NCBI RefSeq assembly: GCF_000411455.1
Contig: NZ_KE150457.1
Span: 934,474 to 998,473 of the forward strand
DNA from: Microbacterium sp. oral taxon 186 str. F0373
GTDB taxonomy: Bacteria > Actinomycetota > Actinomycetes > Actinomycetales > Microbacteriaceae
Length of the DNA: 64,000 nucleotides
Direction: 5' to 3'
In this document: positions 46,131 to 64,000 of the stretch, in pieces
Layout: each line of letters opens with the position of its first letter
How positions within the stretch are numbered: position 1 is the stretch's first letter
Translations under genes and position numbers: made by a program
The notes under the pieces: generated by a model
Databases searched by the model: none
What the model was told of the DNA's origin: nothing
The model's input: only the letters and a program-made list of their open reading frames with translations

Positions 46131-46160
46131 GTTGAGCGAGGCCCGCAGGGCCGAGTCGAC
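46131..46160. repeat. Dispersed GTTGAGCGAG...CGAGTCGA repeat, copy in ssb-rpsR gap
   Basis: GTTGAGCGAGG, a short GC palindrome (CCCGCAGGG), then CCGAGTCGA. Related copies lie at 38350-38380 and 46954-46990. It is a REP-like intergenic element inside the ribosomal operon. Confidence 0.7.
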
Positions 46161-46216
46161 ACCCTCACGCAGAAAATCTTGGATGCCTCGGCATCCGCAC
46201 ACACCTAAGGAAAACA

Positions 46217-46471: not shown

Positions 46472-46483
46472 GGAGCACCCATC

Positions 46484-46936
46484 ATGGCAAAGCTGATTCT
46501 CACGAACGAGGTTGCCGGGCTCGGAAGCGCCGGCGACGTCATCGAGGTCAAGAACGGGTACGCCCGTAACTACCTCATCCCTCAGGGCTTCGCTGTGGCG
46601 TGGACCCGCGGTGGCGAGAAGCAGGTGGCGTCGATCCGCGCCGCCCGCGAGTCGCGCGCGATCCACGACCACGAAGAGGCCGTCGCGCTCAAGGACACCC
46701 TTGAGTCGAACAAGGTCAAGCTGTCGGTCAAGGCTGGCAAGGAAGGCCGCCTCTTCGGTTCGGTCAAGACCGCCGATGTGGCCGACGCCGTCAAGGCGGC
46801 CGGTCTCGGTGACCTCGACAAGCGCAAGATCCACATCACCGCGCCCATCAAGGCCGTCGGTGAGCACGAGGCGACCGTGCGTCTGCGCGACGACCTCACC
46901 GCTGTGATCACCCTCCAGGTGGTCGCCGCCAAGTAA
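46484..46936 (+). CDS. rplI: Large ribosomal subunit protein bL9
   Basis: A 150-residue bL9 from ATG 46484. The N-terminal domain [31 protein letters not shown] is canonical, followed by a helical connector and the C-terminal RNA-binding domain. It is last in the operon and followed by a strong terminator. Confidence 0.97.
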
Positions 46937-46953
46937 GACCCGCCGGGTTTCCC

Positions 46954-46990
46954 GGTCGTTGAGCGAGGCGCGCAGCGCCGAGTCGAAACG
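46954..46990. repeat. Dispersed GTTGAGCGAG...CGAGTCGAAACG repeat, copy after rplI
   Basis: GGTCGTTGAGCGAGG, then CGCGCAGCG, then CCGAGTCGAAACG. It shares both outer words with 38350-38380 and lies directly before the rplI terminator stem. Confidence 0.75.
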
Positions 46991-46994
46991 CCGC

Positions 46995-47037
46995 ACGGAT
47001 GCCGTGACCTCCCCCAAGGTGAGGTCACGGCATCCGT
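46995..47037 (+). terminator. Terminator of the rpsF-ssb-rpsR-rplI operon
   Basis: Perfect 17-base arms ACGGATGCCGTGACCTC (46995-47011) and its complement (47021-47037) around a 9-base loop, followed by CGTTTA. It lies between rplI and the convergent chaplin-like gene and may serve both. Confidence 0.8.
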
Positions 47038-47101
47038 CGTTTACGGTCCCGGGGCGGAGGGACAGGTGCCAGGCACGGTCGCCGGCCCCTCGCGTCGGGG
47101 C

Positions 47102-48112: not shown

Positions 48113-48195
48113 GATGATTTCTCTCCTGAGAGTGTTGGGGGGTATGCGCGCACAGCGCGCGGGATCGTGCCGCTCGGAAGGCGGCCGAACCCCCG

Positions 48196-49152
48196 TCAGT
48201 CAGGGCAGACGTCGGTGGCGAACACCGGCGCGGGGAGGGCAGAGTCGTCCTCCGGTCGGCGTCGCAGCACCCAGGCACGGTGTGCAGCGAACAGACCGAA
48301 GGCGAGCACAGCGCCCGCGCCGAACGAGAATCCAGCTCCGCTGGAGAAGAACGAGGTGGCGTCCAGGGTGGGACCGAGAAGTCCCCAGCCGCCGGGAGCG
48401 CCGGTGGGGACGGACCCGTTTCGGGCAAGAGCCCCCGCACCCGGAACGAACGAACTGACAGCGGTGCCGAGCGACATCGCGGCCGCGTTCGCGGTCGTCG
48501 TGACACCGTGCATCGCCTGGTCCCAGGTCGCCGAGAGCACGGCCAGTGCCGCCTCGGTCGGCTCGAGTGCGTCGGTGGACGGAGGGAGGGAGGATGCCGG
48601 GGCCCCGCCAGGGGGGACGACGACGTTCGTGATGGGGGTCACGAGCTCGCCGACGACCGGGAGTGAGATCACAGCGTCGGTAACGGGGGCCGCGGCATCC
48701 ACGATAGGTTTCACCGCGCCGGTCACGGGCGCGATGACAGGAGCGAGGGGGCTGACGACCTCGCCGACCGCCGAGCCGATGGGGGCGACGACCTCGCCGA
48801 CCGGAGCGAGCGGCTCGAGAACGGGAGCGACGGAGCTGACGATGCCGCCCACCGGCGGAGACGCGCTCTCGACGACGGGGGCGACGGTCTCGGCGACGGG
48901 AGAGAGGATCTCTGCGACCGGGTCGAGGACGGGGGTGGTGGCCTTCTCGAGCGTGCTCGAAACGCCGCTCACGAGGGAGCCGAGCGGATTGTTCGTATCG
49001 TCGGCGGCGTGGGCGGACGGACCGGAGAAGAGGGAGATGGTGAACCAGGCGAACGCGGCTCCGACGCCGAGGGCGCCCAGCACCGCCCATCGCCGTGTCG
49101 ACTCGGTGGTCGATCGTCCGCGGCGCAGCGGGGGGACTGCGATTGTTGCCAT
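48196..49152 (-). CDS. Secreted Val/Pro-rich repeat protein with C-terminal membrane anchor
   Basis: A 318-residue protein from ATG 49152, preceded by GGGAGGTGAAC. A basic N-terminus and hydrophobic stretch (AVLGALGVGAAFAWFTISLF) end in a signal cleavage-like AHA|ADD. The middle is a degenerate repeat of units such as PVAEILSPVAETVAPVVES. The C-terminus has a helix (GAGAVLAFGLFAAHRAWVL) and RRRPEDD tail. No catalytic motif. It is in tandem, 83 bases upstream of the chaplin-like gene, and may be a partner surface protein. Family unknown to me. Confidence 0.78.
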   Translation of the reverse strand: MATIAVPPLRRGRSTTESTRRWAVLGALGVGAAFAWFTISLFSGPSAHAADDTNNPLGSLVSGVSSTLEKATTPVLDPVAEILSPVAETVAPVVESASPPVGGIVSSVAPVLEPLAPVGEVVAPIGSAVGEVVSPLAPVIAPVTGAVKPIVDAAAPVTDAVISLPVVGELVTPITNVVVPPGGAPASSLPPSTDALEPTEAALAVLSATWDQAMHGVTTTANAAAMSLGTAVSSFVPGAGALARNGSVPTGAPGGWGLLGPTLDATSFFSSGAGFSFGAGAVLAFGLFAAHRAWVLRRRPEDDSALPAPVFATDVCPD

Positions 49153-49609
49153 GTTCACCTCCCACGACGATGTGTCGGGATGCCGGCGCACGCCGACACC
49201 CATGGAGTGCCTGGATGACAGAAGATACGCCGATATATCACTCGTGTCCAGACCCCCGCGTCGTGCGATACGACGCGCCAGAGCGGACATCTCGACTTGA
49301 CAAGGGCGCATCCATCCCCATGGTTGTCCCCAACCCTCACTCACAGCGCCAACCTTCAAGCGGAACTTCAACCACATTGCGCATCCACAGGGTGTGAATC
49401 AGGAAATCCCCGGTCAAGACTCGTTTACGACAGCAGATCTTGAGGTTGATCGGCGTGTTTCCACAGGCACTGTGCACAGGGAGCCCGGCGTTTCGCGCAG
49501 ATCATCCACAGAGTTATCCACAGGCCTGTTTGCGACTGTCGGAACCCGTGCCTAACGTGACGTGTGGTCTCGCGGCGGGACCGGTCATCGAGCGTGTGAA
49601 GGGGGCTGC
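49153..49609. other. Divergent intergenic region upstream of dnaB with DnaA boxes
   Basis: A 457-base gap between the divergent surface-protein gene and dnaB. It is visibly less GC-rich than its surroundings. It holds a perfect DnaA box (49514-49522) and several CATCCACA/TTTCCACAG near matches between 49380 and 49520. I see no gene in it. Confidence 0.7.
49514..49522 (+). promoter_or_regulatory. DnaA box upstream of dnaB (perfect TTATCCACA)
   Basis: An exact consensus box 88 bases before the dnaB start, next to the imperfect box CATCCACAG at 49503. It suggests DnaA control of helicase expression. Confidence 0.75.
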
Positions 49610-50992
49610 ATGTCGATCGCGGACATCTCCGAGGATCGCTTCGGTGGACCCCTGGAGAGCCGCGGGCCCGAGCGCACGCCGCCGCATGACCTCCTCGCCG
49701 AGCAGAGCACCCTGGGCGGCATGCTGCTGTCGAGCGATGCCGTCGCCGACGTCATCGAGGCCCTCCGCGGCACTGACTTCTACGTGCCGAAGCACGAGCT
49801 GATCTTCGAAGCGATCCTGTCGCTCTACTCGCACGGCGAGCCCACCGACGTGGTCGCCGTCACCGATGAGCTGATCAAGACTGGCGACCTGCAGCGTTCG
49901 GGTGGCGCCGACTATCTGCATTCGCTGACCTCGATCGTGCCGACGGCGGCGAACGCCGCCTACTACGCGTCGATCGTGCGCGAACGTGCGCTGCTGCGAC
50001 GGCTCGTCGAGGCCGGAACGCGCATCGTGCAGATGGGTTACAACGGTCAGGGCGATGCGCTCGACCTGGTCAACAACGCGCAGGCGGAGATCTACTCGGT
50101 CACCGGTGCGGAGCAGGCCGAGGACTACGTGCCGCTCGAGGTCGCCGTCAACGCGGCCGTCGAGGAGATCGAGGCCGCGCGCGGGCGCGACGGTCAGATG
50201 ACCGGCATCCCGACGGGCTTCTCGGGTCTCGACCAGCTGACCAACGGTCTGCACCCCGGGCAGATGATCATCATCGCGGCGCGACCCGCCATGGGTAAGT
50301 CGACGCTCGCGCTCGACTTCGCGCGGGCCGCGGCGATCAAGGCGCAGCAGCCGACGATCGTCTTCTCGCTCGAAATGGGGCGCAGTGAGATCGCGATGCG
50401 TCTGATGAGCGCCGAGGGTGCGATTCCGCTGCAGAGCATGCGCAAGGGCACGCTCGACTCCCGCGACTGGACGACGATCGCCGCCACCCGTGGTCGCATC
50501 AACGACGCGCCGCTGTACATCGACGACAGCCCCAACATGACGCTGGTCGAGATCCGCGCGAAGTGCCGCAAGCTCAAGCAGCGGGTGGGTCTGAAGATGG
50601 TGGTCATCGACTACCTGCAGCTGATGACGTCGGGCAAGCGCGTCGAGAGCCGTCAGCAGGAAGTCTCGGAGTTCTCGCGTGCGCTGAAGCTGCTCGCGAA
50701 GGAGCTGCAGGTTCCGGTCATAGCGCTGTCGCAGCTGAACCGTGGTCCTGAGCAGCGCGCCGACAAGAAGCCCGCCCTGAGCGACCTGCGTGAGTCGGGC
50801 TCAATCGAGCAGGATGCCGACATGGTGGTGCTGCTGCACCGCGAGGCCGCCTACGAGAAGGACAGCCCCCGCGCCGGCGAGGCCGACCTGATCGTCGCCA
50901 AGCACCGTAACGGCCCCACCGACACGATCACCGTCGCCTTCCAGGGCCACTTCTCGCGCTTCACCGACATGGCGCCGGGGGACTTCGGGTAG
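49610..50992 (+). CDS. dnaB: Replicative DNA helicase DnaB
   Basis: A 460-residue hexameric helicase from ATG 49610 after a GAAGGGGG site. The N-terminal domain has PPHDLLAEQSTLGGMLLS. The RecA-like C-terminal domain has Walker A ARPAMGKSTLA (about 224-234), Walker B VVIDYLQLM, and LSQLNRGPEQRADKKPALSDLRESGSIEQDAD. There is no intein. The frame ends normally with FTDMAPGDFG, and foreign DNA begins within a few bases of the stop, so the transposon left the helicase intact. Confidence 0.97.
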   Translation: MSIADISEDRFGGPLESRGPERTPPHDLLAEQSTLGGMLLSSDAVADVIEALRGTDFYVPKHELIFEAILSLYSHGEPTDVVAVTDELIKTGDLQRSGGADYLHSLTSIVPTAANAAYYASIVRERALLRRLVEAGTRIVQMGYNGQGDALDLVNNAQAEIYSVTGAEQAEDYVPLEVAVNAAVEEIEAARGRDGQMTGIPTGFSGLDQLTNGLHPGQMIIIAARPAMGKSTLALDFARAAAIKAQQPTIVFSLEMGRSEIAMRLMSAEGAIPLQSMRKGTLDSRDWTTIAATRGRINDAPLYIDDSPNMTLVEIRAKCRKLKQRVGLKMVVIDYLQLMTSGKRVESRQQEVSEFSRALKLLAKELQVPVIALSQLNRGPEQRADKKPALSDLRESGSIEQDADMVVLLHREAAYEKDSPRAGEADLIVAKHRNGPTDTITVAFQGHFSRFTDMAPGDFG

Positions 50993-51011
50993 GTGTAGGT
51001 TTTTTTTGAAG

Positions 51012-51062
51012 TTGTCCATTTCGCAATCGAAATGTCCACCACGTGTCCATTTGGACATTTCG
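51012..51062. repeat. Left-end repeat cluster, candidate TnsB-binding sites
   Basis: TGTCCATTTCG (51013-51023), CGAAATGTCCA (51028-51038, inverted) and TGTCCATTT (51044-51052) run into TGGACATTTCG (51052-51062). Repeated short sites in both orientations near the tip are the hallmark of Tn7-family ends. Confidence 0.65.
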
Positions 51063-51107
51063 GCGTGACTCGGCCGAGGCAAGCAACTTCTGCCGGACGA
51101 TACCCGT

Positions 51108-51344
51108 TCAGCTCGATGTTGCGATGTGGTTCAGGTCGACGAGGGCTCCGCGGAGGACCTGCTGAGCGATCCGGGCAGTCTCCATGCGCGGTTCGAAATT
51201 CTCTCGGAGTTGTTGACGCGGATGGATGTAGTTCCGGAAGTTCCTCACCTGATCGGCGTGCCGCGCGACATCCTCGCTGAGTACTCCGAGCGCGCGGCTC
51301 ACGGCGATCAGCTCGGAGAGGGTCCACTGATCAACCGCCTTCAA
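51108..51344 (-). pseudogene. HEPN-like protein fragment at the transposon left end
   Basis: A 78-residue frame from TTG 51344, antisense to tnsA. It reads WTLSELIAVSRALG, then DQVRNFRNYIHPRQQLRENF and a helical end ALVDLNHIATSS. The RNFRNYIHP part fits a HEPN-type R(x6)H motif found at the C-termini of larger bacterial proteins. Upstream the frame meets a stop after 13 codons with no good start, so it looks like the surviving 3' piece of a longer gene. It could instead be a very small TTG-started gene. Confidence 0.5.
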
Positions 51345-51378
51345 GGAGCCGTTCCGTCGCGGCGCACTCGGCGAGGCG

Positions 51379-52089
51379 GTGCCGCGTTACACGCTGAGAT
51401 TCGATCGGGATGACCTCGAACGGGGCGAGCTATCGGACCTGGACGCCCCCCATGTCTTCGAGGCCAAACCCCGGCGGACGTTCCGCTGGCATCGGGGCCA
51501 GCGCCATTACCCAGGGCGCTACTGGTCCGCCACGACGGACGGTTTCGTCGGATACGAGAGTCGCCTCGAACTTGCGGCGCTGCTCCTCGAGGACTTCGAC
51601 CACCGAGTCGTTCGCATCGCCTCGCAGCCGTTCGAGCTGATCGCCGACCGCGACGGCGTCGAGCGAAGCTACGTGCCGGACTATCTGATCGAGCACGACG
51701 ACCACCGTTTCACGGTCATCGAGGTCAAGCCCAAGCGCCGGCTCGAGGATCCTGATATCGCGGGTGCTCTCCGGTGGGCGGGCGACATCATCCAGTCGCG
51801 CGGGTGGGCATACCGGATCGTCACAGAACCCGCCCCTGCACTGCTCTCCAACATCCGGTTCCTCGCGGGCTACAGGCGTCGCTGGCAGTTCCCTCAGCGA
51901 GACGTCGACCTGGTCGAGGAAGCCACTCGCGAGGCACCCACACTCGGCGCGGGTCTGCGGAGTGCTGGCGCCGTCTTGAACGACGCTCCCTATGCGCGAG
52001 CGGTCGTGCTTCACCTGCTCTGGCGCCGCTCGCTTCTCTGCGACCTCACGTCCGCCCTTTCCAACCACACCCAGCTGGAGAAGCCATGA
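51379..52089 (+). CDS. tnsA: TnsA-like transposon endonuclease
   Basis: A 236-residue protein from GTG 51379. The restriction-enzyme-like core is visible: GYESRLELAALL (Glu60/Glu64), SQPFEL, VPDYLIEH (Asp101) and TVIEVKPK (Glu115, Lys117). TnsA nicks the 5' ends of Tn7-like elements so they move by cut-and-paste rather than replication. The C-terminal part (about 125-236) should hold the TnsC/TnsB contacts. The stop overlaps the next start (ATGA). Confidence 0.88.
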   Translation: MPRYTLRFDRDDLERGELSDLDAPHVFEAKPRRTFRWHRGQRHYPGRYWSATTDGFVGYESRLELAALLLEDFDHRVVRIASQPFELIADRDGVERSYVPDYLIEHDDHRFTVIEVKPKRRLEDPDIAGALRWAGDIIQSRGWAYRIVTEPAPALLSNIRFLAGYRRRWQFPQRDVDLVEEATREAPTLGAGLRSAGAVLNDAPYARAVVLHLLWRRSLLCDLTSALSNHTQLEKP

Positions 52090-54203
52090 GCCATACGTTC
52101 GATATCCGCGTCGGCAGCACTGTCTCGTACGACGGCGGCCACTGCACGGTTATCGAGATCGCCGGTGATGCCGTCGTGCTCGTCGATGCCGCCAAGAGGG
52201 CACGGCGGGTTCGACTGGTCGAACTCCTTCGCGACGCGTCGGACGCATTTGGGTTGCCGTCGGAGGAGGCCGCACTCACACCACTCGCGCTGATCTGGGC
52301 GGACGCGACGGAGGCTCAACGCGACGAGGCGCGACGAAAGGCCGCGCACATCCGCGAGATGCGCACGGGCTTCGCGTCGGGGCTACCGACGCTCGCTCAG
52401 CCGCACGAGCCTCGACCGGAGTACAACCCGAAGCTCACAACTATCCACGAGCGCCGCCGTTCCAAGGCTGCCGAGCTCGGTGTCAGTCCGAAGACGTTGA
52501 GGCGCTGGGAAGGTCGGTTCGACGAAGGTGAAGAGCTCGCGCTGCTCGACTTCCGGAAGACATCGTGGACGCCGGCGCTCTCCGGCCTCGATCCGCGCTG
52601 GGTCGACATGTGCCGCCGCGTCGTCGAGGAGAACGTGCGCGGCGCCAAGCGCAGCGTCACGACCACGCTCGCGATCGTGCTGGCAAGGGTCAACCGGGAG
52701 TACCCGGATGCCGATGTGCGGATCCCCTCCGAGTCGACCGCTCGCGACGCGGTCGCCGAACTCACCCGTGGCAAGGGGACGTTCGGCGCGAGCATGCGCG
52801 CGCAACGATCCATCGACACACGGCCGCCCGTGCCGTACGGACGGTTGGTTGCGACAAGACCCGGTGAGTACGTCGTCCTCGACACCACACCCCTCAATGT
52901 CTTCGGCGTCGCGCCGGTCACCGGCAAGTGGATGCGCGCCGAGCTGACCGTTGCCCTCGACCTCTACGACCGGTCGATCCTCGGGCTTCGCCTTGCGCCC
53001 GTCTCGACCAAGGCGGTGGATGTCGCGGGAGTGCTGATGGAGGCGCTCATGCCGCGCGAGATGCCGGCGGAGTGGGGCGACCGAGCGACCTGGCCGTTCC
53101 ACGGCGTACCCGAGAACATCGTCATCGATGTCGAGAACCTCAAGGCGCTGCGGTTCCGGCGTCCCGGCACCCTTCCCGACACGATCATCATCGATCACGG
53201 TAAGCCGTTCATGTCGATCCACGTCGCGAGCGTGTGCCAGCGACTCGGGATCTCCATCCAGCCCGCGCACGTCTATACCGGCACCGACAAGGCGTGGGTG
53301 GAACGGTGGTTCCGCACCATCAACGAGGTGCTGCAAGAGCTACCCGGCTACAAGGGCTCAGACATCGCGTCTAGGGGTGAGGCGCCCGAGGTGGAAGCCG
53401 TCTACACGATCCCGCAACTGGAGCAGATCCTGCGGGAGTGGATCGCGACGATTTACCACGTTCGCCCGCACGACGGACTTGTCGACTCGCAGCTGCCCGC
53501 GGCCAAGATGAGCCCCGCTCAGAAGTTCGAGCAGGGGATCGCGGTCGCCGGCCGCATCCGTGTGCCGTCAAACCCGGACCTGCTACTCGAGATGCTCCCC
53601 GTCGTGAAGCGCAAGTTCAACCACTATGGCGTCGAGGTCGGCACCCTCCGATACAACGGTGACATCGTCGGGAAGTACTACGACCGATCGCGGGCGATGG
53701 CGAAGAGCAAGCGGAAGTGGCAGTTCTCGGTGAACCCCGACGACTTCTCGCAGATCTACTTCAACGACCCCGACGACAACTCCTGGCACGTGCTGCGCTG
53801 GGAGCACGCGCCGAAGGTCCCGGTGCCGTTCAGCTTCGACGCCCTCGAGTACGCCAAGGGCATCGCTCTCGACCGTCGCAACGGTGTGAATGTGTCCGAA
53901 GTGCTCGGTGAACTCCTCGAACGGTGGGGTGCCGGTCGTGCGAGCACGCCCGCCGAGAAGCGCATCAGCGCGCGACTTGCCGCCCAGCTCGCTGAGACCG
54001 CGGACGGCCCGGACAGCCCGTTCTTCCCGCACATCGCCAAGCAGATCGCGCAGCAAATGGCTGGACCGGATCTGAGCGAGGAGCTGGGCATGGTCTCGCT
54101 CGCACCAGCACCGGCGAGCGGAAACGACGATCCTCTCGCCCTCACCGCTGACGAGCTCATCGACGAGGACCTCGACGACATCGACCTCCTGGAGGACCTG
54201 TGA
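52086..54203 (+). CDS. tnsB: TniA/TnsB-like DDE transposase
   Basis: A 705-residue transposase from ATG 52086. N-terminal helix-turn-helix regions (RRRSKAAELGVSPKTLRRWEGRF) precede the rve catalytic core with Asp266 in VVLDTTPLN, Asp370 in IIIDHGKPF and Glu406 in AWVERWF. The last two are 35 residues apart, a classic DD(35)E. A Mu-type beta-barrel follows, then an acidic C-terminus (DELIDEDLDDIDLLEDL), which by analogy engages the TnsC ATPase. Four-base overlaps on both sides show tight co-translation. Confidence 0.94.
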   Translation: MSHTFDIRVGSTVSYDGGHCTVIEIAGDAVVLVDAAKRARRVRLVELLRDASDAFGLPSEEAALTPLALIWADATEAQRDEARRKAAHIREMRTGFASGLPTLAQPHEPRPEYNPKLTTIHERRRSKAAELGVSPKTLRRWEGRFDEGEELALLDFRKTSWTPALSGLDPRWVDMCRRVVEENVRGAKRSVTTTLAIVLARVNREYPDADVRIPSESTARDAVAELTRGKGTFGASMRAQRSIDTRPPVPYGRLVATRPGEYVVLDTTPLNVFGVAPVTGKWMRAELTVALDLYDRSILGLRLAPVSTKAVDVAGVLMEALMPREMPAEWGDRATWPFHGVPENIVIDVENLKALRFRRPGTLPDTIIIDHGKPFMSIHVASVCQRLGISIQPAHVYTGTDKAWVERWFRTINEVLQELPGYKGSDIASRGEAPEVEAVYTIPQLEQILREWIATIYHVRPHDGLVDSQLPAAKMSPAQKFEQGIAVAGRIRVPSNPDLLLEMLPVVKRKFNHYGVEVGTLRYNGDIVGKYYDRSRAMAKSKRKWQFSVNPDDFSQIYFNDPDDNSWHVLRWEHAPKVPVPFSFDALEYAKGIALDRRNGVNVSEVLGELLERWGAGRASTPAEKRISARLAAQLAETADGPDSPFFPHIAKQIAQQMAGPDLSEELGMVSLAPAPASGNDDPLALTADELIDEDLDDIDLLEDL

Positions 54204-55321
54204 TCCTTCCGCTCGAGCGCGACGAACTCCTCTCTCGCTGGGAGGGGTGGCGACACTTCGCTGAGGGGCCGGCGCTCGAGAAGCCCGAGCATCTGTCTGC
54301 GAAGCAGATCAAGAGGCTCGGGGAGGATGATCGGGTCGCCTATGACTACCAGCGCGAGCGGTATCACGCGAACTTCCTCGTCACGACTCCTCAGGTCAAG
54401 CGGCTCAACGTGCGTTTGTGGGACCTTCTCGACGCAAACCAGCAGGGGCCTTCACGAGTCAAGGGGGCGGCGGTCATCGACTCGCCCCCAGGGCTGGGCA
54501 AGACCACTGCCGTGGACGCGTTCGGGCGAGCCTTTCATCGACGGCAGATCTTGAGGCACGGGCGTGACTTCGACGACGGGCAGACGCTCCACATCCCGGT
54601 CTGCCACGTTGCATTCAAGGGCCACACGACCACGCGTGCGCTCAACGAGGCAATCCTGAACTTCTACAACCACCCCTCCGCCGACGCGGCGGAGACTCGG
54701 CATCTGCGAAACCGCAACCTTGCTACTCTCGCGGCGGAATCGGTCCGTCGTCATGGCACGCGGTTGATCATCGTCGATGACGTGCACTTCTTGAAGATCC
54801 ACACGGACGAGGGAATCGCGCTGGCCAACGAGCTGAAGTGGCTCGCCAACGAGTACCCCGCGACCTTCCTGTTCACCGGCGTCAACATGACCGACACGGG
54901 CCTGCTCAGCGAGAGCAAGACCACCAAGAAGCTGGCAATGTCACAGATCGCGCGACGCTGGACCAGGCTTGCCCTTCCCCCGTTCGCGCACCCCGTTGAT
55001 GAGCACCGAAAAGCCTGGCTCTCGCTCCTCGGCACGATCGAGACCCACCTCGTGCTTGCCAACGCAAAGCCCCGGATGCTGCGCGAACAGGCGGACTATC
55101 TCCACGAGCGCTCGACCGGCATGATCGGCTCGCTCTTCAAGCTGATCACCCTCGGGGCGGTGCATGCGATGCGGGACGGCATCGAAGAGCTGACTCGAGA
55201 GGTGCTCGACGAGATCGACATCGATGTCGCAGCCGAAGACGCTCGGGAGATTGTCGCGAAAGAGCTCGAGGAGATGAAGCGTGCGGCGGCCAAGCGGAGC
55301 ACGACGCGGGCCATCGCATGA
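54200..55321 (+). CDS. tnsC: TniB/TnsC-like AAA+ transposition regulator
   Basis: A 373-residue ATPase from GTG 54200. Walker A is DSPPGLGKTTAVD (about 94-106) and Walker B is LIIVDDVHFL (about 189-198), followed by sensor-like FLFTGVNMTDTG. In Tn7-like systems this protein links the target selector (TniQ) to the transposase. The start overlaps the tnsB stop and the stop overlaps the tniQ ATG. Confidence 0.93.
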   Translation: MILPLERDELLSRWEGWRHFAEGPALEKPEHLSAKQIKRLGEDDRVAYDYQRERYHANFLVTTPQVKRLNVRLWDLLDANQQGPSRVKGAAVIDSPPGLGKTTAVDAFGRAFHRRQILRHGRDFDDGQTLHIPVCHVAFKGHTTTRALNEAILNFYNHPSADAAETRHLRNRNLATLAAESVRRHGTRLIIVDDVHFLKIHTDEGIALANELKWLANEYPATFLFTGVNMTDTGLLSESKTTKKLAMSQIARRWTRLALPPFAHPVDEHRKAWLSLLGTIETHLVLANAKPRMLREQADYLHERSTGMIGSLFKLITLGAVHAMRDGIEELTREVLDEIDIDVAAEDAREIVAKELEEMKRAAAKRSTTRAIA

Positions 55322-57711
55322 GCCTCCGCCGCCTGCTGCACGTCGCCATGCCACTTCCAGATGAACCTCTCGACTCGTGGGTCGAGTTCATGGCCCACAG
55401 CTACGGGGCCACTGTCGGCGAGATGGCGCGAGCACTGGGACTGATCGGTGGGAATGGGGTCCCTGCCGTGGGAGCGCAATCCTCACGGGCGTGGTCCACC
55501 GCGCTCGAACCGCAGCAACTCCGCAACCTCGAACTCACGACCGGGCGGTCGGGCGATGAGTATCGGGCGATGACGCGCACCACGTTCGCGGCGAACGCCA
55601 TCCGCCTCACGCCTCAGGGGCGCATCAGCGCGTCATGCCCGGCCACGGGAGTCGCTGCTCGGTACTGCCCGGAGTGCCTCGCCGACTCGGGAGGTCGATG
55701 GCGCCTGTCCTGGCAGTTCCCGTTCGGGTTCGCCTGCCTCCGCCACAAGCGTCTCCTCGTCGACGCGTGCCCGGGATGCGGCCAGCTTCCGCGGCTCATC
55801 GGACATCCCCTCACGCTTGTCCCGGAGCCGGGACGCTGCCACAACCGACCAGCAACCGAATCGACCGTGTTGCGGGCGCGTTGCGGTGCGGACCTGACCT
55901 CGAGCGAAGAGTTCGTGGCGGCGCACTCCGAGACGCGCGAAGCGCAACGACTGATCTTGAGGGTCGTAGCCACCGGCATCGGCGAGTTCGGCATCTACGC
56001 AGACGGTCGACCGAGCACGATCCAGGTCCTGTCCGACATGCTGCTGCTGTCTCGCGCGGGACGACAGGCGCTCGTCGACGGAGAGCGATTCGAGTGGATG
56101 CCGGAAGGCCAGGCCGACGCGAGCCCGATCACGTCCCACCGACGTACCGGAAAGGTAGATCTGCGGCCAAGCACCGCCCGAGAGGTCGCGCTCGGCAACA
56201 CCATCGCCTTCGAGGCGCTGCAGGCCGGTGAACGAATCACCGACCTGCTGCGCGGACGCGTCAGCATCCACACTGCACTCGACCACTACTCCCCACCCCT
56301 GCGAGACCACGTGAGTCGTGCGCTCGGCCGAACGAGACGCCCCACCGCGACCCTTCAGGCCGTGAAGGTGTGGGCGACCGACCCGGAAGCTCGCGCTGCG
56401 AAGCTCCCAGCGGTTCTCTGGCCCGAATGGGCCGCTCGGCTCGCACCACGGCGGCTCGACGCTGAGATCGCCGGCGGTGCTTTGGCGGCGGCGGCGGTCT
56501 TCGTCGGGACGCGACTCACTCACGGTTCAGCGATCAAGCTCCTCGATCAGGAGGCCAAGGGACGTCAAGTCAGCCACGTCATGCGCTCCCTTGGCCGCAA
56601 TGCACCCGAAGCCGACACGATCCGCGCGATCGCACGGCTCGCTGCGTTCCTCGACGAAACCTCGACGCCGATCGACTTCGCACGCCGGCGGACGATCGAC
56701 TACTCCGGCATCCTGCCTCGTGACGAGTGGCGCGAGATCTGCCGAAGCAGGAACGTGCTGCCGGGTGGGGTTCGCCGTTGGCAGGTCGCTCGAGCACACC
56801 TCTACGTGCTGCTCAGCGGCAACAGGGTGGCGCGGGCTCCGTTCGCCGACGAGCCCGGGATCCCTCCTTTCGCGGCGGTACGGGAACTTCGAGCCGGCAT
56901 GCCGGCTGCCGTCGCGGCGGCACTCGACGCGGCTGGCGCTGACTTCCTGAGGCTGCACGGCGTCGACGAGCCCGTCTCGTGGGTGCCGGAGCTGGAGGTG
57001 GTCGGGGTCTCAGACGAGGTCGCCAGCCCGAATGAAGGACGATGGCCGCAAGCCCGGCCCGCCCGGGCTGCGGTGAACTCGGTTCGTGCGGTCGCGGCCT
57101 ACTCCGCAGGGCGCTCGGTCAGCGAGATCGCGTTCGACCACGGTGTCGCCCGTCAGACTGTCGGTCGTGTGCTGGCGGCCGAGGGAGTGGAGACGCGCCG
57201 CGGTCGCAGAAGCACTGTGATCGACCCGGAGTGGCTGCGGGAGCGGTACATCGTCGACCGCCACACGATCCCCGAGATCGCGGCCGAGGTTGGAGTGACG
57301 ATGACCACCATCAATCGCCACCTCGAGGCCGCCGGTATCCCCCGTCGTGCTCGCGGGAGCGCGAGCCGAGCAACAGCGATCCGCGTCAACCCGCGCGCCG
57401 GAGACTCGCCGCTCTTGCGCCGCATTCTCGTCGGCCAGGATGCCACGCAGCGAGCAGAGCGGTTCCTCATCGTCGCCCGTCACGACACCATGACGGCAGC
57501 CGCCCACGAGATCGGCGTGACCCTCAGCATCCTGGCGAATCAGATGAGACGCATCGGGGTGGATGCCGGCGGCCCGCTGATCCAGCGTGCGTTTCGAGGT
57601 CAGCCCCTGGCACTCACCGAGCTCGGCGTTGAGGTGCGTCTCGAGTTGGCGCGCGCCTTTGAGTTCAGCGAAGCCGAAGATCCGGCGCGTCCGCCGGAAG
57701 GATCTCAGTGA
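55318..57711 (+). CDS. tniQ: TniQ/TnsD-like target-selection protein with three C-terminal HTH units
   Basis: A 797-residue protein from ATG 55318. The TniQ N-terminus is recognisable: PDEPLDSWVEFMAHSYG, then zinc ligands Cys117, Cys120, Cys140, His143, Cys151, Cys154 (YCPEC ... CLRH ... CPGC). The long C-terminal part carries three helix-turn-helix-like units near residues 600-625, 648-675 and 724-750 (for example TIPEIAAEVGVTMTTINRHL). This size and layout match TnsD-type homing factors that read a fixed chromosomal site rather than the short TniQ of CRISPR-guided elements. With the element at the dnaB end, the dnaB 3' sequence is the obvious candidate target. Confidence 0.88.
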   Translation: MSLRRLLHVAMPLPDEPLDSWVEFMAHSYGATVGEMARALGLIGGNGVPAVGAQSSRAWSTALEPQQLRNLELTTGRSGDEYRAMTRTTFAANAIRLTPQGRISASCPATGVAARYCPECLADSGGRWRLSWQFPFGFACLRHKRLLVDACPGCGQLPRLIGHPLTLVPEPGRCHNRPATESTVLRARCGADLTSSEEFVAAHSETREAQRLILRVVATGIGEFGIYADGRPSTIQVLSDMLLLSRAGRQALVDGERFEWMPEGQADASPITSHRRTGKVDLRPSTAREVALGNTIAFEALQAGERITDLLRGRVSIHTALDHYSPPLRDHVSRALGRTRRPTATLQAVKVWATDPEARAAKLPAVLWPEWAARLAPRRLDAEIAGGALAAAAVFVGTRLTHGSAIKLLDQEAKGRQVSHVMRSLGRNAPEADTIRAIARLAAFLDETSTPIDFARRRTIDYSGILPRDEWREICRSRNVLPGGVRRWQVARAHLYVLLSGNRVARAPFADEPGIPPFAAVRELRAGMPAAVAAALDAAGADFLRLHGVDEPVSWVPELEVVGVSDEVASPNEGRWPQARPARAAVNSVRAVAAYSAGRSVSEIAFDHGVARQTVGRVLAAEGVETRRGRRSTVIDPEWLRERYIVDRHTIPEIAAEVGVTMTTINRHLEAAGIPRRARGSASRATAIRVNPRAGDSPLLRRILVGQDATQRAERFLIVARHDTMTAAAHEIGVTLSILANQMRRIGVDAGGPLIQRAFRGQPLALTELGVEVRLELARAFEFSEAEDPARPPEGSQ

Positions 57712-57949
57712 GCTCGACCCCCAGCGCCTGCGACATCGCGAGCAGAGTACGGATCGTCGGGTTCGCCGGCGTGCCCGGCTTCGACTCGCCCTTCTCATAC
57801 TTCTGGTAGGTGTAGCGCGTCAGCCCGGAGCGGTAGGCGACGTCTTCCTGGCTGAGTCGCGCCTCAGCGCGGAGCCGCCGGAGGTTCGTGGCAATCTGTG
57901 ACGCATAGTCGCTCCAGGACTCGTCCTCGGGTCTCGTGCGCTTCGCCAC
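57665..57949 (-). CDS. XRE-family helix-turn-helix regulator
   Basis: A 94-residue protein from GTG 57949. The Cro/CI-type HTH reads IATNLRRLRAEARLSQEDVAYRSGLTRYTYQKYEKGES, followed by NPTIRTLLAMSQALGVELTEIL. It is convergent with tniQ and overlaps its last 47 bases, and divergent from the DUF4209 gene. A repressor of the cargo promoter is the simplest reading. Confidence 0.9.
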   Translation of the reverse strand: MAKRTRPEDESWSDYASQIATNLRRLRAEARLSQEDVAYRSGLTRYTYQKYEKGESKPGTPANPTIRTLLAMSQALGVELTEILPADAPDLRLR

Positions 57950-57978
57950 CGACCCAGCGTCATCGCGTAGTCGGTTCG

Positions 57979-57999
57979 GTATGGCCTAATCTGTATGGC
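57979..57999. promoter_or_regulatory. Direct repeat in the XRE-DUF4209 divergent promoter region
   Basis: GTATGGC occurs at 57979-57985 and 57993-57999, 14 bases apart, in the 147-base gap between divergent genes. A candidate operator for the XRE protein; pattern only. Confidence 0.35.
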
Positions 58000-58096
58000 A
58001 ATCTCGATTCCTGGCTTCGATGACATCCCGAACTGGCTTGACCGGCTACGACAGAGTCGTCTCTGAGATGTCGCGAAGACTCGATACGCTCGGCCG

Positions 58097-59902
58097 GTGA
58101 CGAAGACGGCGCAAGACATGCTTGCGGCGATTGATCCGGACGTAATCGCGGGTGACGCAACGCTCATCGACGCGCACAGTCGCTTCCAGTCAATTGCAGA
58201 TGAGTTCGACGGTGAGTCCGCAGGGGCGCACGCGTACCGAAACCTCTCGGCGATAGCCGGAATGATGCTCGACGGTGCCGACTGGGACCGTCCTTACTCG
58301 CCGCTGATGTCTCTCGGAGGCAAGCGCACGGCGTTGCCCGACGACCTGGACGACGAAGCGCTCGGCTTCTTTCGCCTATTGCTGGATGAGGTTCCTTCGT
58401 CCGGGCTCGCGGCACGCATGTGTGACATCTTGTTCGTTCGTGAAACTGAGCGAGCTTCGCGGTACGCACTCGCCAAGCGGCACACCGATATCGTCGCCGA
58501 ACTCTCGCTGCTCCCTGATCCCGACGACGAATCCATTCAGACATGGATCCGAGCCGCTGAGATCGCTGGTCGCTACCGCCTCGATGACGGCGTTCAGGCG
58601 CTTACCGCTCGGGCCCTCGAAGGCTTTCGAGGTGGCACGCCAACGGTCGCTTGGCACGTGGCGCAGGCGATGCGCCGCGCACGATACTTCGGTGGCCATT
58701 CCACGGAGATAGCCGAGAGGCTCAATGCATTGGCAAGCGCCGAGCCCAATGCTCATGCGAAGGTTCAGCTCCTGGAAGAGTCGATCCGGTGGCGACGAGG
58801 TAGCGACGCCGAAGAGCGGGCGGCTCCGAGTCGAGAGGCGATCGGTGACGCGTGGTGGCAAGAAGCGAAGCAACGGAAAGACTCGAGTCTCGTCGCGCGA
58901 AACTTCTTGGGTAATGCGTACAGTGCTTACCGCGCCGTGCCGCGGCATCTCCGCAGTGAGCGCACTCGGAAGCGAGTCGGGAAGCTCCCAAGGCTGATCC
59001 GAGTAGCTGGCGAGAGCGCGCTGGGCGAGATGCAGAAGGTCCGCGGCGGTCCGATCGATTTGTCGCCCATCGTTGAGCAGGCGGAAGCGATCGCGAACGA
59101 CACGGACGTCATCCGGGGTCTGGCGAGATGGTTCTCGGCGGCCCCGCTCCAGACCTTCGAAGATGCGCTCCAGTCCGCCGATCAGAGTGGGCTGCTCAGC
59201 CTAGTGACGACTTCGACAATCACGGACGATGCCAGAAAGGTCCACAGCACGGACGAGGACAGACTTCGCTCGGGTGTCGACCCGAGTCGTTGGGCACGGA
59301 TGGTGAAGAACTACTCACTCCATATCACGGCGATCGCAACCGGGCACATTCGGCCAGCACTCATGCAGTTCTCGACGAACTATCGCCTCGACATCCGAGA
59401 CTTCGAGGTGATCGTCTCTGCATCAGGATTCGTACCGGCGGATCGCAAGAGTCTCTATGCGCGCGGACTCCATCACGGCTACTACGGGCGAGTGACCGAG
59501 TCACTGTTCATACTCGCTCCCACGATCGAGGCCTGCGTGAGGAGCGCCCTCCAGGCGAGCGCGGTTGAGACGCGCAACGTGAAGACCAATGACACGGAGA
59601 TCGAGCCGGGACTGAGCGCACTCCTGGAGCTCCCGGAGGCGGATGAGGTTCTCGGCGTAGATCTTGCGTGGAACATTCGGGCGCTCTTCTGTGGGCCGAC
59701 TGGCCCGAACCTGCGCAACCGGGTCGCGCACGGTCTCCTAGGTGAGGCTGAGTCCTGCGGTGACGCGGCGCTCTACGCATGGTGGCTCGCGTTCCTGCTC
59801 GCATTCACTCCGTACTACCACGCTTTGAGGAGCGAGCAGGGTGGTCCCGAGCACGCGCCCGGCGCCGCGGGAAGTGCTCACGCGAGCGGCGTCTCGGAGT
59901 AG
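58097..59902 (+). CDS. DUF4209 domain protein with HEPN-like RNxxxHG motif
   Basis: A 601-residue protein from GTG 58097. The first 400 residues are helical and without a domain I can name. The C-terminal part shows the DUF4209 pattern: GLHHGYYGRVTESLFILAPTIEACVRSAL, then NLRNRVAHGLL, with Arg540-Asn541 and His545-Gly546. RNxxxHG is the defining DUF4209 motif and also fits the R(x4)H signature of HEPN ribonucleases. No membrane segment or signal peptide. It is the first cargo gene after the transposition genes; a defence or RNase role is inferred. Confidence 0.82.
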   Translation: MTKTAQDMLAAIDPDVIAGDATLIDAHSRFQSIADEFDGESAGAHAYRNLSAIAGMMLDGADWDRPYSPLMSLGGKRTALPDDLDDEALGFFRLLLDEVPSSGLAARMCDILFVRETERASRYALAKRHTDIVAELSLLPDPDDESIQTWIRAAEIAGRYRLDDGVQALTARALEGFRGGTPTVAWHVAQAMRRARYFGGHSTEIAERLNALASAEPNAHAKVQLLEESIRWRRGSDAEERAAPSREAIGDAWWQEAKQRKDSSLVARNFLGNAYSAYRAVPRHLRSERTRKRVGKLPRLIRVAGESALGEMQKVRGGPIDLSPIVEQAEAIANDTDVIRGLARWFSAAPLQTFEDALQSADQSGLLSLVTTSTITDDARKVHSTDEDRLRSGVDPSRWARMVKNYSLHITAIATGHIRPALMQFSTNYRLDIRDFEVIVSASGFVPADRKSLYARGLHHGYYGRVTESLFILAPTIEACVRSALQASAVETRNVKTNDTEIEPGLSALLELPEADEVLGVDLAWNIRALFCGPTGPNLRNRVAHGLLGEAESCGDAALYAWWLAFLLAFTPYYHALRSEQGGPEHAPGAAGSAHASGVSE

Positions 59903-60002
59903 TGGGAGTAGACCGTGGTTGGGTGGATGTCGCGCGCGTGCCACCTCGACACGAATTCGACCGCCGCACAAAGCGATGGTCAGTGATCACTAGATTGAAC
60001 CC

Positions 60003-61318
60003 GTGAACACACCGCAGGAGTCGCCCGGGGTCCTCAGAGTCGACGCGGTAGCGGTTGCCGCGGGTAAGGACCACTCACTGGTGCTCTATGACGACGGAGC
60101 CGTGCTTTCGTTCGGTAACAACGAAGATGGCCAGTGCGACGTCCCGAGGCAGCTAAGTGGTGTGAAAGGGATCTCGGCTGGAGGGTTTCACAGTCTCGCC
60201 CTCCGTGAGGATGGCACCGTCGCTGCTTGGGGCGGCAATATCTTCCGGCAGAGCGAAGTTCCCGCGATTGCTGTTTCCGTGACGTCCATCGCCGCGGGCC
60301 ATTGGCACAATCTCGCGCTTCGCGAGGACGGCACCGTCGTGGCGTGGGGACGGGATAGTTGGGGTGCGGCGACGGTCCCCGAGGGACTCGAAGGCGTGGT
60401 GGCGATCGATGCGGGCTATGAACACAGTCTCGCCCTCCTGAAGAGCGGAACCGTCGTCGCTTGGGGAAGCAACGACAAAGGACAGTGCGACGTGCCCGAG
60501 GATCTCGGAGACGTAGTAGCAATCAGCGCCGGCGCTTGGCAAGGGTTCGCGTTGAGGCGAAATGGTGAGTTGGTCGCCTGGGGTGAGGGTGAGAACGGCC
60601 AGACAAGCTTGCCTGAGCGCCATGACATCGTCGCTGTATCCGGCGGCTACTGGCACGGCTTGGCGCTAGCCGAAGGCGGACAGGTACTTGCATGGGGCGA
60701 CGACGAGTTTCGCCAGAATGACGTGCCGTCGTGGGTTGCCGGCGCGGAGGCGCGAGCAGTCGCAGCAGGTGGCGAGCATAACGTGGTCCTGACGAACGAC
60801 GGTCGCGTCTTGGCGTGGGGCCGAAATGACCATTGGCAGACCTCAGTTCCCGATCGATCAGCTGCCCACTCATTCGTGGAAGAGCCGCGCCGACAGAGTG
60901 ATGCCGAGCCGCCGCGATTGCCCGCGGGCTCCGTTTGGGGATGGGGTAGCACCGATGACGGTCTACTGGCCTTCGTCCCCAAACTGAGTAGTGCTGTTCC
61001 GGTCAGAGTTCCGGGCGTCGACCACGTATCACGAGTCGTCACTCTTCAGAACACTGTCTTTGCGCTTCGCTTCGACGGGACCGTCTTGGGCTGGGGCGGA
61101 AACGACAAAGGTCAACTCTGCGACGGAACTCGTACTGACCGGTATGCGCCGACGAGGATCCCATCTTTGCGAGGTATCACGGCGATAACGCGAGGGCCGA
61201 TGGCCGTGTCTGAGAATGGCGCGGTGTGGTCGTGGGAGGACGCCGTCGACGGTGAGCCCAAATTGGTTCACCCGGGCTTGCTGGGCGGTGTCGTACGCGT
61301 CGAGCACGACGATCACAC
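60003..61318 (+). pseudogene. RCC1-repeat beta-propeller protein, 5' part (split by IS3 element)
   Basis: From GTG 60003 (VNTPQESPGVLRVDAVAVAAG) this frame encodes about 438 residues before the insertion. There are roughly ten RCC1-like units, the first seven of a short type such as DGTVVAWGRDSWGAATVP, with SLALREDGTV between. No signal peptide is seen. The frame ends inside the insertion element after a few foreign codons (stop near 61394). Without the element it continues at 62665 in the same frame. It lies 100 bases after the DUF4209 gene on the same strand, likely the same operon. RCC1 propellers usually bind proteins, nucleic acid or lipid; no enzyme motif is visible. Confidence 0.85.
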
Positions 61319-61357
61319 TGACTCGCCCCGGCGTGTCCGGAGAGCGTTTTACTGGTG

Positions 61358-62215
61358 TCAGCCGGCTTTTCCGACCGGTTCGTTGCGAGCGTAGTCGAGC
61401 TGCTCGACCTCAAGGGGTGTGAGGTCGTCGATGGAGCCGTGGGTGCGCTCCGTGTTGAACCACAGCACCCAGGACGCGGTTGCCGCCTCGACCTGGTCGA
61501 TGTCGCGCCAGGGCCCGTCGTGGTGGATGAGCTCGGACTTGTAGAGCCCGATCTGCGATTCCGCGAGGGAGTTGTCGTAGGCGTCGCCGACGGACCCGAC
61601 CGAGGGGTCGATGCCTTCGTCGACGAGCCGGTCCGTGAAGGCAATCGAGGTGTAGACGCTGCCGGCGTCGGTGTGGTGCGTGAGCCCGGCGAACCCGGTG
61701 ACGCCTTCGCGGCGGCGGGTGAACAGAGCCATGTCGAGGCAGTCGAGCACGAGCGGAGTTGTCATCGAGGTCGCCGCTCTCCACCCGATGATGCGGCGGG
61801 AGTGCGCGTCGAACACGAACGCGACGTAGACCCATCCGGACCACGTCCAGACGTAGGTGAAGTCGGCGACCCAGAGCTGGTTCGTGCGGAACCGGGCGAA
61901 GTGCCGGTCGACGAGGTCGGCGGGCCTGGTCTCCCGCAGATCCGCATCCACGGGACGCTTCCGTTTTCCGCGGACGACACCGGCGATCCCGAGCTCGCGC
62001 ATGAGGCGTTGGACCGTGCAGCGGGCGATGTCGTGCCCGTCGCGACGCAACCGCAGCCAGAGCTTCCGGGCCCCGAGCACCTTCCGGTGCGTCTGCCACG
62101 TGGTCAGGATGATCGGCTTCCACCTCTCGTCCGACACGATCCGCGGTGACGGACCGCGATCTCTCGCGTCGTAGTAGGTCGATGGGGCGATCTTCACGCC
62201 GTGCTGGGTGAGCAC
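61358..62215 (-). CDS. IS3-family transposase OrfB (rve catalytic part)
   Basis: A 285-residue frame; its coding frame stays open upstream to at least 62293 (AIVGFIDAHKDRADGG), overlapping the end of orfA in the -1 frame, so the active product is made by ribosomal frameshift. It has an HTH_21-like APSTYYDARDRG, then the DDE core: Asp in LWVADFTYV, Asp in HHTDAGSVYTS and Glu in NSLAESQIGLYKSELI. All catalytic residues are present. Confidence 0.93.
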   Translation of the reverse strand: MLTQHGVKIAPSTYYDARDRGPSPRIVSDERWKPIILTTWQTHRKVLGARKLWLRLRRDGHDIARCTVQRLMRELGIAGVVRGKRKRPVDADLRETRPADLVDRHFARFRTNQLWVADFTYVWTWSGWVYVAFVFDAHSRRIIGWRAATSMTTPLVLDCLDMALFTRRREGVTGFAGLTHHTDAGSVYTSIAFTDRLVDEGIDPSVGSVGDAYDNSLAESQIGLYKSELIHHDGPWRDIDQVEAATASWVLWFNTERTHGSIDDLTPLEVEQLDYARNEPVGKAG

Positions 62216-62286
62216 GGCGCAGATCGACTCGACACCCCATCGGAGCCCTCCGTCGGCGCGGTCCTTGTGCGCGTCGATGAAGCCGA

Positions 62287-62610
62287 CTATCGCTTGTGTG
62301 GCCGGTCGAGTTCGGCCGCGAAGAAAGCCGAGGCCGCCTTCAAGATCTCGTTCGCCCGCCGCAGTTCCGCGTTCTCCCGCTTTAGTCGCTTGATCTCCAC
62401 CGCGGCGTCGGTCGTGACTCCGGGCCGGTCGCCCGCGTCGACCTGCTGCCTGCGGATCCAGGTGCGGATCGTTTCTGGCGACCCGACGCCGAGCATCTGC
62501 GCGACAGCGGTCATCGCGGCGTACTCGCTCGGATAGTCGGATCGCACCTCGGCGACCATACGGACAGCGCGCTCACGAAGCTCGCGCGGGTACTTACTGG
62601 GACGTCCCAT
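62287..62610 (-). CDS. IS3-family transposase OrfA (HTH part)
   Basis: A 107-residue protein from ATG 62610 after GGAAGGAT. The helix-turn-helix reads MTAVAQMLGVGSPETIRTWIRRQQ, followed by a leucine-zipper-like helix VEIKRLKRENAELRRANEIL. It binds the inverted repeats and is the upstream half of the fused OrfAB transposase. Confidence 0.93.
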   Translation of the reverse strand: MGRPSKYPRELRERAVRMVAEVRSDYPSEYAAMTAVAQMLGVGSPETIRTWIRRQQVDAGDRPGVTTDAAVEIKRLKRENAELRRANEILKAASAFFAAELDRPHKR

Positions 62611-62661
62611 GAGACAGATCCTTCCAAGGAATCCTGTCTCCGGACACGCCGGGGCGAGTCA

Positions 62662-64000
62662 CACCTACTTTGCACTTCTGCGCGACGGCACGGTCCGGAG
62701 TTGGGGGCGCAATCAATACGGCCAAATTGGCAATGGAACGAGAAGTGGGTACGGAAAGACAGACGCCGACCCGAGTGTTCCGACCGCAGTGACAATACTC
62801 GCCGAGAAGCGCTCGTGGTTCGGAAAGCTAAGCGAAGTCGAGAGGCCTCTGTCCGACGTGGTGGACGTCGTGATCAGTGGTGGTGGGGGGTATCATCCCA
62901 TTTCCGTCTACGCCCTCCGCAAGGACGGATCCGTCTGGGGTTGGGGTGCGAACAACGCTGGCCAGCTCGGTGACGGCTCCACGGAAGTTCGGAGCAGACC
63001 CGCGCAGCTCGGTGGACTCTCCGGCATCGTGAGCTTGGTCGCGGAACCCAGGATGGCCAGCAACATCTGGCCGTGGATGTACGCGATCACGGAGGCGGGT
63101 GCGGTCTGGCGTTGGCGTCCGACTCAGAGCGGGATCGCCGTGCCGGAGCCGATGGCAGACCTTAGTGGCGTCCGTTCAATCTCGATCGCAGAGGGGTGTG
63201 TGCTCGCGTTGACGGCCGGAGGTGCCGTGTGGAACTGGGACGCCGGTTCCTTGACTCCGAGTTCGCCCGCTCTGGTTTCGGGTCTCGACGACACCATCGC
63301 GGTCGCGGCTGGTCGACGAAGTATCGCCCTCCGCAGCGACGGGTCGGTGTGGATGTGGGGCTGGGAGCCAACAAAGCTCGGGAGCAGGTACTCTCGCACC
63401 GCCGAGCGCGTGGAAGTTGTCAGCGGAGCTACCAGCGTGTGCAACTCGCTTGGAACCTACTTCGCCGTCTGCGAGGACGGCTCGGTCTGGGCGTGGGGAG
63501 CGGGGTCGCGCGGGCAACTCGGAAGCGGAGACGGTAGACACCGACTCGTGCCCGCTGTCATAGACGCGGTCGGCAATGCCGCTGGCCTGATCGCGGGCCA
63601 TGACACCTCGTTCGCGATCAGGTCGGATGGATCTCTGTCGGCGTGGGGAAGCAACGAGTTCAACAAACTTGCTCTCACACGCGAGGAGGAATCAGAAGTC
63701 GTCTGGGACAACCTCTTTGCGCTTCGCGATGTTGTATCGACGGCATCAGGTTCGGGAATCACCGTGACTGTCACCCGTGACGGCGCGGTCTGGGAAACAG
63801 GTTCTGGCAACGCAGACGAGTCTCGACCCCTCCGTGTCGGCGAGCTTGCAGACGTGACGGCAGTTGCGGCTTGCCGTCGTACCAAGTTTGCGCTGCGAGA
63901 AGATGGTTCCGTATGGGCCTGGGGGGATAGTCAGCGAAATGAGATAGGTGATGGCACGATCCTCGTCCCCGGCCCATCGCTGTCGGGAATGGTCGCGCAA
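62662..64000 (+). pseudogene. RCC1-repeat beta-propeller protein, 3' part (continues past window)
   Basis: The frame resumes as TYFALLRDGTVRSWGRNQYG and stays open to base 64000 without a stop. At least nine more RCC1 units follow, several of the longer classical type such as DGSVWGWGANNAGQLGDG. With the 5' part the intact gene would exceed 880 residues and 19 units. This half lacks a start of its own and is probably not translated while the insertion persists. Confidence 0.85.

Follow-up and report, generated by a model that had tools for sequence, protein, structure and literature searches.

Tn7-like transposons recurrently placed at the 3' end of dnaB in Microbacterium, with a predicted TnsD-type target selector

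The 64,000-nucleotide stretch of Microbacterium sp. oral taxon 186 str. F0373 analyzed here (contig NZ_KE150457.1, positions 934,474 to 998,473; hereafter the window, with positions counted from its first base and L002 denoting the sequence past its end) carries a Tn7-like transposon at the 3' end of dnaB. We observe both boundaries of the element, its target duplication, the recurrence of related elements behind dnaB, and a near-constant distance between their ends and the dnaB codons for the motif SRFxDM. The dnaB 3' end is likely a landing site recognized by Tn7-like elements, and the element's TniQ protein is very probably a TnsD-type selector, one that recognizes the conserved codons at the end of dnaB and places the insertion about 22 nt further on.

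A preliminary description of the window had proposed homing to dnaB from position, for an element occupying 50990..57711. The element is longer than that: it spans 50994-67538 (16,545 bp), and 3,538 of its bases lie past the window end. One base separates the dnaB stop codon from TGTAGG, which is followed by TGTCC repeats (three direct, one inverted) at 51009-51061, while the 93 kb searched downstream hold a single matching reverse repeat cluster with a CCTACA terminus, at 67538 (L002:3538). TnsB-like repeats, predicted to bind TnsB, are present in inverted orientation at both termini (TGTAGG...CCTACA). Outside them stand two identical GTAGG copies, the right one at 67539-67543 (L002:3539-3543), which make a perfect 5-bp duplication; the right end and the duplication expected beyond the window are both there. 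Because the left copy contains the TAG stop, the insertion left dnaB whole, and the DnaB C-terminus reads MAPGDFG-stop. The G+C content is 65.2% in the element versus 69.2% in positions 1-49500.

The reported operon of tnsA, tnsB, tnsC and tniQ, in that order, is confirmed, with every junction overlapping by exactly 4 bases and all four proteins matched to their families. Its placement directly after an intact dnaB stop was right as to the completeness of dnaB and wrong as to the spacing: tnsA starts 386 bp past the stop, and the transposon end sits in that gap. TnsB has readable catalytic residues (D, D and, after 35 residues, E), and its orthologues in relatives are 90-96% identical. In TnsC, Walker B was matched by script, and Walker A (GLGKTT), missed by the script's stricter pattern, was read by eye. 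Structure comparison of an AlphaFold model of TniQ likens residues 4-316 to Tn7 TnsD and residues ~701-786 to a LysR-type helix-turn-helix (HTH); it gave no clear match for residues ~340-700. The invariant Cys/His positions are retained, and TniQ is predicted to be a TnsD-like target selector, with an N-terminal TniQ fold and a long C-terminal part that includes the LysR-type HTH. What marks the element as Tn7-like is tnsA with tnsB, tnsC and tniQ in the operon, paired multi-repeat inverted ends and the 5-bp duplication. That related elements return to a single conserved gene in a constant orientation, a rule that has exceptions, fits a fixed attachment site.

We collected dnaB-downstream stretches from 53 further genomes of a 59-genome same-genus sample (dnaB was matched in 55 of the 59; G400, where the contig ends, was left out), which with the window gives an unselected set of 54 loci. 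Seven genomes of named relatives were added, one a duplicate and one too short; the set of 59 loci includes five chosen for carrying the element. Among the 54 unselected loci, 15 have an end resembling TGTAGGTT (at most one mismatch; nine exact) 10-40 nt past the SRFxDM codons. The control rate in 8,588 windows further downstream was 0.14%, so that about 0.08 would be expected. The distance from SRFxDM to the end is exactly 22 nt in eight of the 15 and 19-26 nt in all of them, and across these loci the spacing between SRFxDM and the dnaB stop codon varies from 12 to 24 nt. Since the distance stays within 19-26 nt while the stop moves, the end tracks the conserved codons more closely than it does the stop.

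The elements at this position are diverse. By repeat core, their ends fall into several types (TGTCC, TGGCGG, TGTCGG, TGACA/TGGCA and others) with a shared architecture, and behind dnaB in G415, G442, G417 and G399 stand divergent tns sets that share 37-52% identity with that of the window. Comparison across the genus, proposed earlier, thereby yields genomes with diverged tnsABC-tniQ sets behind dnaB and others with no such end. G440 encodes a DnaB identical to the window's, yet a different, partly decayed element stands there (258 TnsB residues aligned), in which TnsA was not found. At two loci (L141 of G401 and L137 of G399) the dnaB stop codon is seemingly provided by the transposon terminus, and repeated insertions may have shaped the variable DnaB C-terminal tail. 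At L078, L094/L127 and L130, about 18.7 kb lie between paired-looking ends at dnaB, and no tns gene was found; these elements probably moved in trans.

In a wider search of 295 same-genus genomes, the left-end pattern of the window's own type, with two mismatches allowed, occurred 67 times, spread over 42 genomes; a backward control pattern matched in two genomes. All 67 were classed: 22 stand behind dnaB, 18 immediately follow the right end of another element, 10 follow a palindrome and 17 are of other kinds. Twenty of the 22 dnaB-class ends lie 19-32 nt past SRFxDM. Read singly, the 17 others include three near dnaB at a longer distance (L206, L209 and the second end of L270), three with a right end nearby but at least 16 nt away (L213, L250, L234) and one with the palindrome at four mismatches (L257).

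Related tniQ genes also tend to be found near dnaB. A profile of eight TniQ proteins (A1) matched 8 of the 59 same-genus genomes, G406 through the C-terminal HTH part alone; in the A1 alignment, four of the relatives that home to dnaB stop short of the LysR-type C-terminus. Of the other seven matched genomes, six carry tniQ on dnaB's contig and strand, 4.3-10.1 kb past it in the downstream direction, and in G445 it is on a contig other than dnaB's. The nearest relatives (L037-L044) were first taken as counter-evidence, with no dnaB within about 6 kb upstream of tnsA; in M. lacus and PS02070 (L037 and L038), dnaB then proved to share contig and strand with tnsA, which lies 18 and 24 kb further downstream, with cargo between. 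The contigs of L039-L044 end before dnaB, and we exclude these from the supporting counts. In a family search with the window's TniQ, 35 of 398 genomes matched, mostly by the HTH part alone, and ten with matches to the TniQ part were examined. Among these other-genus Microbacteriaceae, tniQ is 6-19 kb downstream of dnaB on the same strand in five (G390, G246, G050, G285, G266) and 31-68 kb downstream in four (G105, G318, G201, G087), the latter being compatible with larger or stacked elements and proving nothing by themselves. A class-wide search at a threshold of 1e-30 matched 7 of 394 genomes besides the window's, with tniQ 3-16 kb downstream of dnaB in four (G508, G655 and G767 of family f11, G506 of f39) and 36 kb downstream in G552 (f36). 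A transposon-like end directly behind dnaB reads TGTAGG in G506, G655 and G767, while others have a different type of end there, TGTTGTCG or TGTGAAC. The exact pattern of the dnaB 3' end plus TGTAGGNNCC, strict enough to miss the window itself, occurs in 2 of 299 family genomes, from two further genera, and its backward control gave no match among the matches listed. In a 27-row TniQ tree the window falls in an 11-row clade with support 100, of which seven rows are near dnaB and the other four are without placement relative to it; the label for nearness to dnaB requires seven changes on the tree. Separately, the DnaB match in G552 and G767 is split into two pieces within a single long open frame, the pattern expected of an intein.

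Several observations weigh against homing to dnaB or limit how far it reaches. Thirty-nine of the 54 sampled loci have no TGTAGGTT at one mismatch or fewer behind dnaB. A two-mismatch count of 32 of 59 was discarded, as at least five of its matches are dnaB's own ATG-TAG and five of the 59 loci were preselected; a naive TGTAG scan was dropped for the same fault, picking up dnaB's own ATG-TAG. The loci share ancestry, so the 15 ends are not 15 independent events. Two of the 22 dnaB-class ends lie 48 and 50 nt past SRFxDM, and ten of the 67 ends are unexplained, four of them being the same flank in four genomes. Target duplication at dnaB is proven for the window's element alone: several right ends found elsewhere have a flank differing from that of the left end, and a partner-duplication scan of 27 other loci (mostly stretches under 20 kb) gave only chance-like matches to ACA plus a putative duplication. 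In M. kunmingense, a candidate duplication GACAA was not accepted, both sides matching only with a left terminus one base longer. Finally, distant TniQ proteins are encoded away from dnaB in three genomes: 238 kb from it in G302, 92 kb upstream of it in G769 and on other contigs in G515. The expectation that related tniQ genes would stand near dnaB was correct for six of seven same-genus genomes, for five of ten in other genera (within 20 kb) and for four of seven in the class (within 16 kb), and failed for these three.

dnaB loci without such an end and TniQ proteins located elsewhere would both suit a chance insertion in the window, with the other loci inherited or unrelated. We give this explanation the least credence of all, considering that 15 ends were found where about 0.08 were expected, that diverged elements with different end letters share one spot, and that a genome whose DnaB is identical to the window's has a different element there. 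The recurrence at 15 of 54 loci speaks against a one-off event, and together with the related tniQ genes at dnaB it upholds the homing first proposed from position.

Successive insertions appear to have accumulated at dnaB. In G927 (C1:299933-452170), the roughly 152 kb behind dnaB contain four successive left ends, the later three each directly behind a right end, and we read this array as a tandem run of cargo elements; L042 has two different tns sets in tandem. In the window's genome, the gene that lies about 30 nt behind dnaB in G403 and G439 is 67.7 kb downstream. We had expected this original dnaB-following gene right after the element; given its distance, the flank past 67543 looks instead like older island DNA. 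Directly behind the right duplication, at 67544-67603 (L002:3544-3603), a 22-nt run agrees at 20 positions with a different type of end (L115), with none of 2,000 shuffles as good, and by this match the stretch appears to be what is left of an earlier insertion at dnaB. Such stacks invite the explanation that dnaB was reached once and that later elements joined when similar ends recombined homologously, without transposing anew: ends fail to pair in several stacks, and older-end remnants adjoin younger ends. The matching duplication on both sides of the window's element argues otherwise, and end types with different core letters offer little shared sequence, leaving this explanation very improbable.

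The ten palindrome-class ends argue against strict exclusivity for dnaB. A 17-bp palindrome, GTGWATSTGACAYWCAC, lies 37-40 nt before each of them, and it is found at the same mismatch level in 7 of 12,000 random 75-nt windows. The motif was derived from the same ten sites, and with repeated flanks (three and three) these represent perhaps six independent contexts. Two such ends are on plasmids, namely plasmid A of Microbacterium sp. No. 7 (NZ_CP012698.1) and an M. paraoxydans plasmid (NZ_CP064874.1, with the flank of L272); a third plasmid end (NZ_CP012699.1) has no GTGWATSTGACAYWCAC palindrome. One palindrome-class end adjoins an ArdC-like gene, and one flank, found in three genomes, adjoins metabolic genes. 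Further ends sit within other Tn7-like elements, in the interval that separates a MarR-like HTH gene from tnsA (G399). There, at L137, 3308-5865 from the dnaB stop, TGTAGG/CCTACA ends and an ACACA/ACACA duplication bound an element of 2,558 bp that lies between these two genes of another element; it has a SecA-like frame (by eye), and no tns genes were seen in it. The window element's nearest relatives have an extra MarR-like HTH gene beside tnsA and a close GTGWATSTGACAYWCAC copy (2-3 mismatches) about 150 nt upstream of their own tnsA, which suggests that this copy is an operator. Both the MarR-like gene and the palindrome are missing from the window element; the relatives' MarR-like HTH found no match in the plasmid collection, where TnsB and TniQ relatives are all below 60% identity. 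We offer tentatively, at somewhat less than even chances, that the family uses two fixed DNA addresses, the dnaB 3' end as a chromosomal safe harbor and GTGWATSTGACAYWCAC on plasmids and inside like elements, with insertion 37-40 nt beyond it. If true, this would be a Tn7-like plan whose plasmid arm is addressed by sequence, not by TnsE or a CRISPR guide, and dnaB would be a growing array of cargo islands.

For insertion at dnaB, we infer that TniQ reads dnaB DNA. TniQ would bind the conserved last codons (the SRFxDM stretch), set the insertion about 22 nt beyond and pass the site to TnsC; TnsA and TnsB would excise the element, TnsB acting on the TGTCC-type repeats, and it would be joined with its tnsA side next to dnaB. 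The gene stays intact through the TAG in GTAGG, the essential gene serving as a safe harbor, and later elements would enter between dnaB and older residents to produce tandem stacks. The site could conceivably be chosen by something other than TniQ: a replication feature near dnaB, an RNA guide or a second DNA-binding protein that the elements encode (the small HTH protein or the relatives' MarR-like HTH). The palindrome-class ends call for either one selector with two sites or two selectors, and the MarR-like gene beside the relatives' tnsA would be a candidate, yet the window element lacks that gene. An RNA guide is disfavored by the lack of any Rfam match in 46000-64000, of any Cas match among the seven open reading frames (ORFs) scanned, and of CRISPR-like or other array-like repeats in 50980-64000 (the last 3.5 kb, in L002, were read as ORFs only), the last of which also sets the element apart from CRISPR-associated transposons (CASTs). 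The near-constant nucleotide distance to the dnaB codons likewise favors reading of the sequence, and we consider a selector other than TniQ improbable.

Tn7 makes a 5-bp duplication and has TGT...ACA ends. The window element shares both with it, as it does separate tnsA and tnsB genes, an AAA+ TnsC, a large TniQ/TnsD, a tnsA end toward the target gene, and a fixed short distance from conserved 3' codons of an essential gene. Unlike Tn7 proper, which inserts downstream of glmS about 20 bp past the stop, it lies at dnaB and overlaps the stop codon, and it has an actinobacterial TnsA subfamily and a TniQ with a C-terminal LysR-type HTH. No tnsE was noticed in the element, although no search aimed at TnsE was made. 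In the account of Tn7 given in PMC2918618, the TnsD binding site is the final 36 bp of glmS, and the transposon inserts about 25 bp beyond. The text of Benler et al. 2021 (PMC8649781) describes an Actinobacteria-dominated Tn7-like clade with no experimentally characterized member, to which the window element probably belongs. Other systems in which a TniQ-family protein or linked selector reads a conserved gene include Tn6022 at comM, Tn6230 at yhiN, Tn7017 at parE and the tRNA-targeting I-B2 and I-D CASTs (PMC11406308, PMC10293859); as those texts give them, their sites exclude dnaB, and several work through a distinct selector protein (TnsF) or through Cas proteins, of which there is no sign here. 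The site list in a 2024 review (PMC11406308) comprises glmS, yhiN, comM, parE, tRNA genes and plasmid resolution sites, and the word dnaB does not occur in the texts, supplements aside, of Benler et al. 2021 or Faure 2023 (PMC10293859), neither of which names a dnaB site. In line with the earlier remark that dnaB is absent from the well-described sites, the open-licence PMC texts we searched yielded no paper naming it as a Tn7-like site, so a listing in a supplement or closed journal is possible. TnRErm46 of R. equi, described as an IS481-type element targeting CTAG, was set aside as a parallel.

What seems new here is a Tn7-like family with a new attachment gene, by which the replicative helicase gene joins a short list, in a large actinobacterial group that, according to the text of PMC8649781, has no experimentally studied member. 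It also explains a recurrent genomic-island hot spot in Microbacterium. The proposed target reading is directly testable: the TniQ proteins are numerous and diverged, the target is a single conserved one, and the cores of the end repeats are element-specific. If reconstituted, the system would allow DNA to be inserted site-specifically beside an essential gene of actinobacteria, hosts to which a glmS-type tool is less well suited.

Table 1. Features of the dnaB region and its transposon, with the palindrome-class ends found in other sequences.
Feature	Position	Strand	Basis or remark
dnaB, host gene, complete	49562..50992	+	Pfam DnaB_N (DnaB), DnaB_C; ORF
Left GTAGG (5-bp target duplication copy)	50989..50993	.	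includes dnaB TAG stop
Tn7-like element, in-window part	50994..64000	+	right terminus CCTACA at L002:3538
dnaB-proximal end	50994..51070	+	TGTAGG terminus, three direct TGTCC repeats and one inverted copy, TnsB-binding-site-like
tnsA	51379..52089	+	PF08722 Tn7_TnsA-like_N; NF033179 TnsA_like_Actin (NCBIfam)
tnsB, DDE transposase	52086..54203	+	weak rve and IS481-like matches; PADLOC TnsB
tnsC, AAA+ ATPase	54200..55321	+	PF13401 AAA_22; PF05621 TniB
tniQ, 797 aa	55318..57711	+	PF06527 TniQ; PF00126; AlphaFold model and structure comparison
Small Xre-type HTH gene	57665..57949	-	overlaps tniQ 3' end
Cargo, DUF7380/DUF4209 protein, PADLOC candidate defence protein PDC-S39	58097..59902	+	E 4e-123
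Cargo, RCC1-repeat protein gene, first part, IS3-interrupted	60003..61394	+	ORF and domain match
IS3-family insertion, two ORFs, inside RCC1 gene	61358..62610	-	family matches
Cargo, RCC1-repeat frame resumed, continues past window end	62609..64000	+	ORFs
Palindrome-class ends	L210, L212, L221, L228, L239, L246, L249, L253, L262, L272; also L283:8001, L284:8001		37-40 nt beyond GTGWATSTGACAYWCAC

Behind the operon, the small Xre-type HTH gene is 86-90% identical in seven of the eight nearest relatives. Among the cargo, the DUF7380/DUF4209 protein is a phage-defence candidate in PADLOC. The RCC1-repeat region (60003-64000 and L002:1-3039) is broken by IS3-family copies and is followed in L002 by a transposase ORF that is IS256-like by eye.

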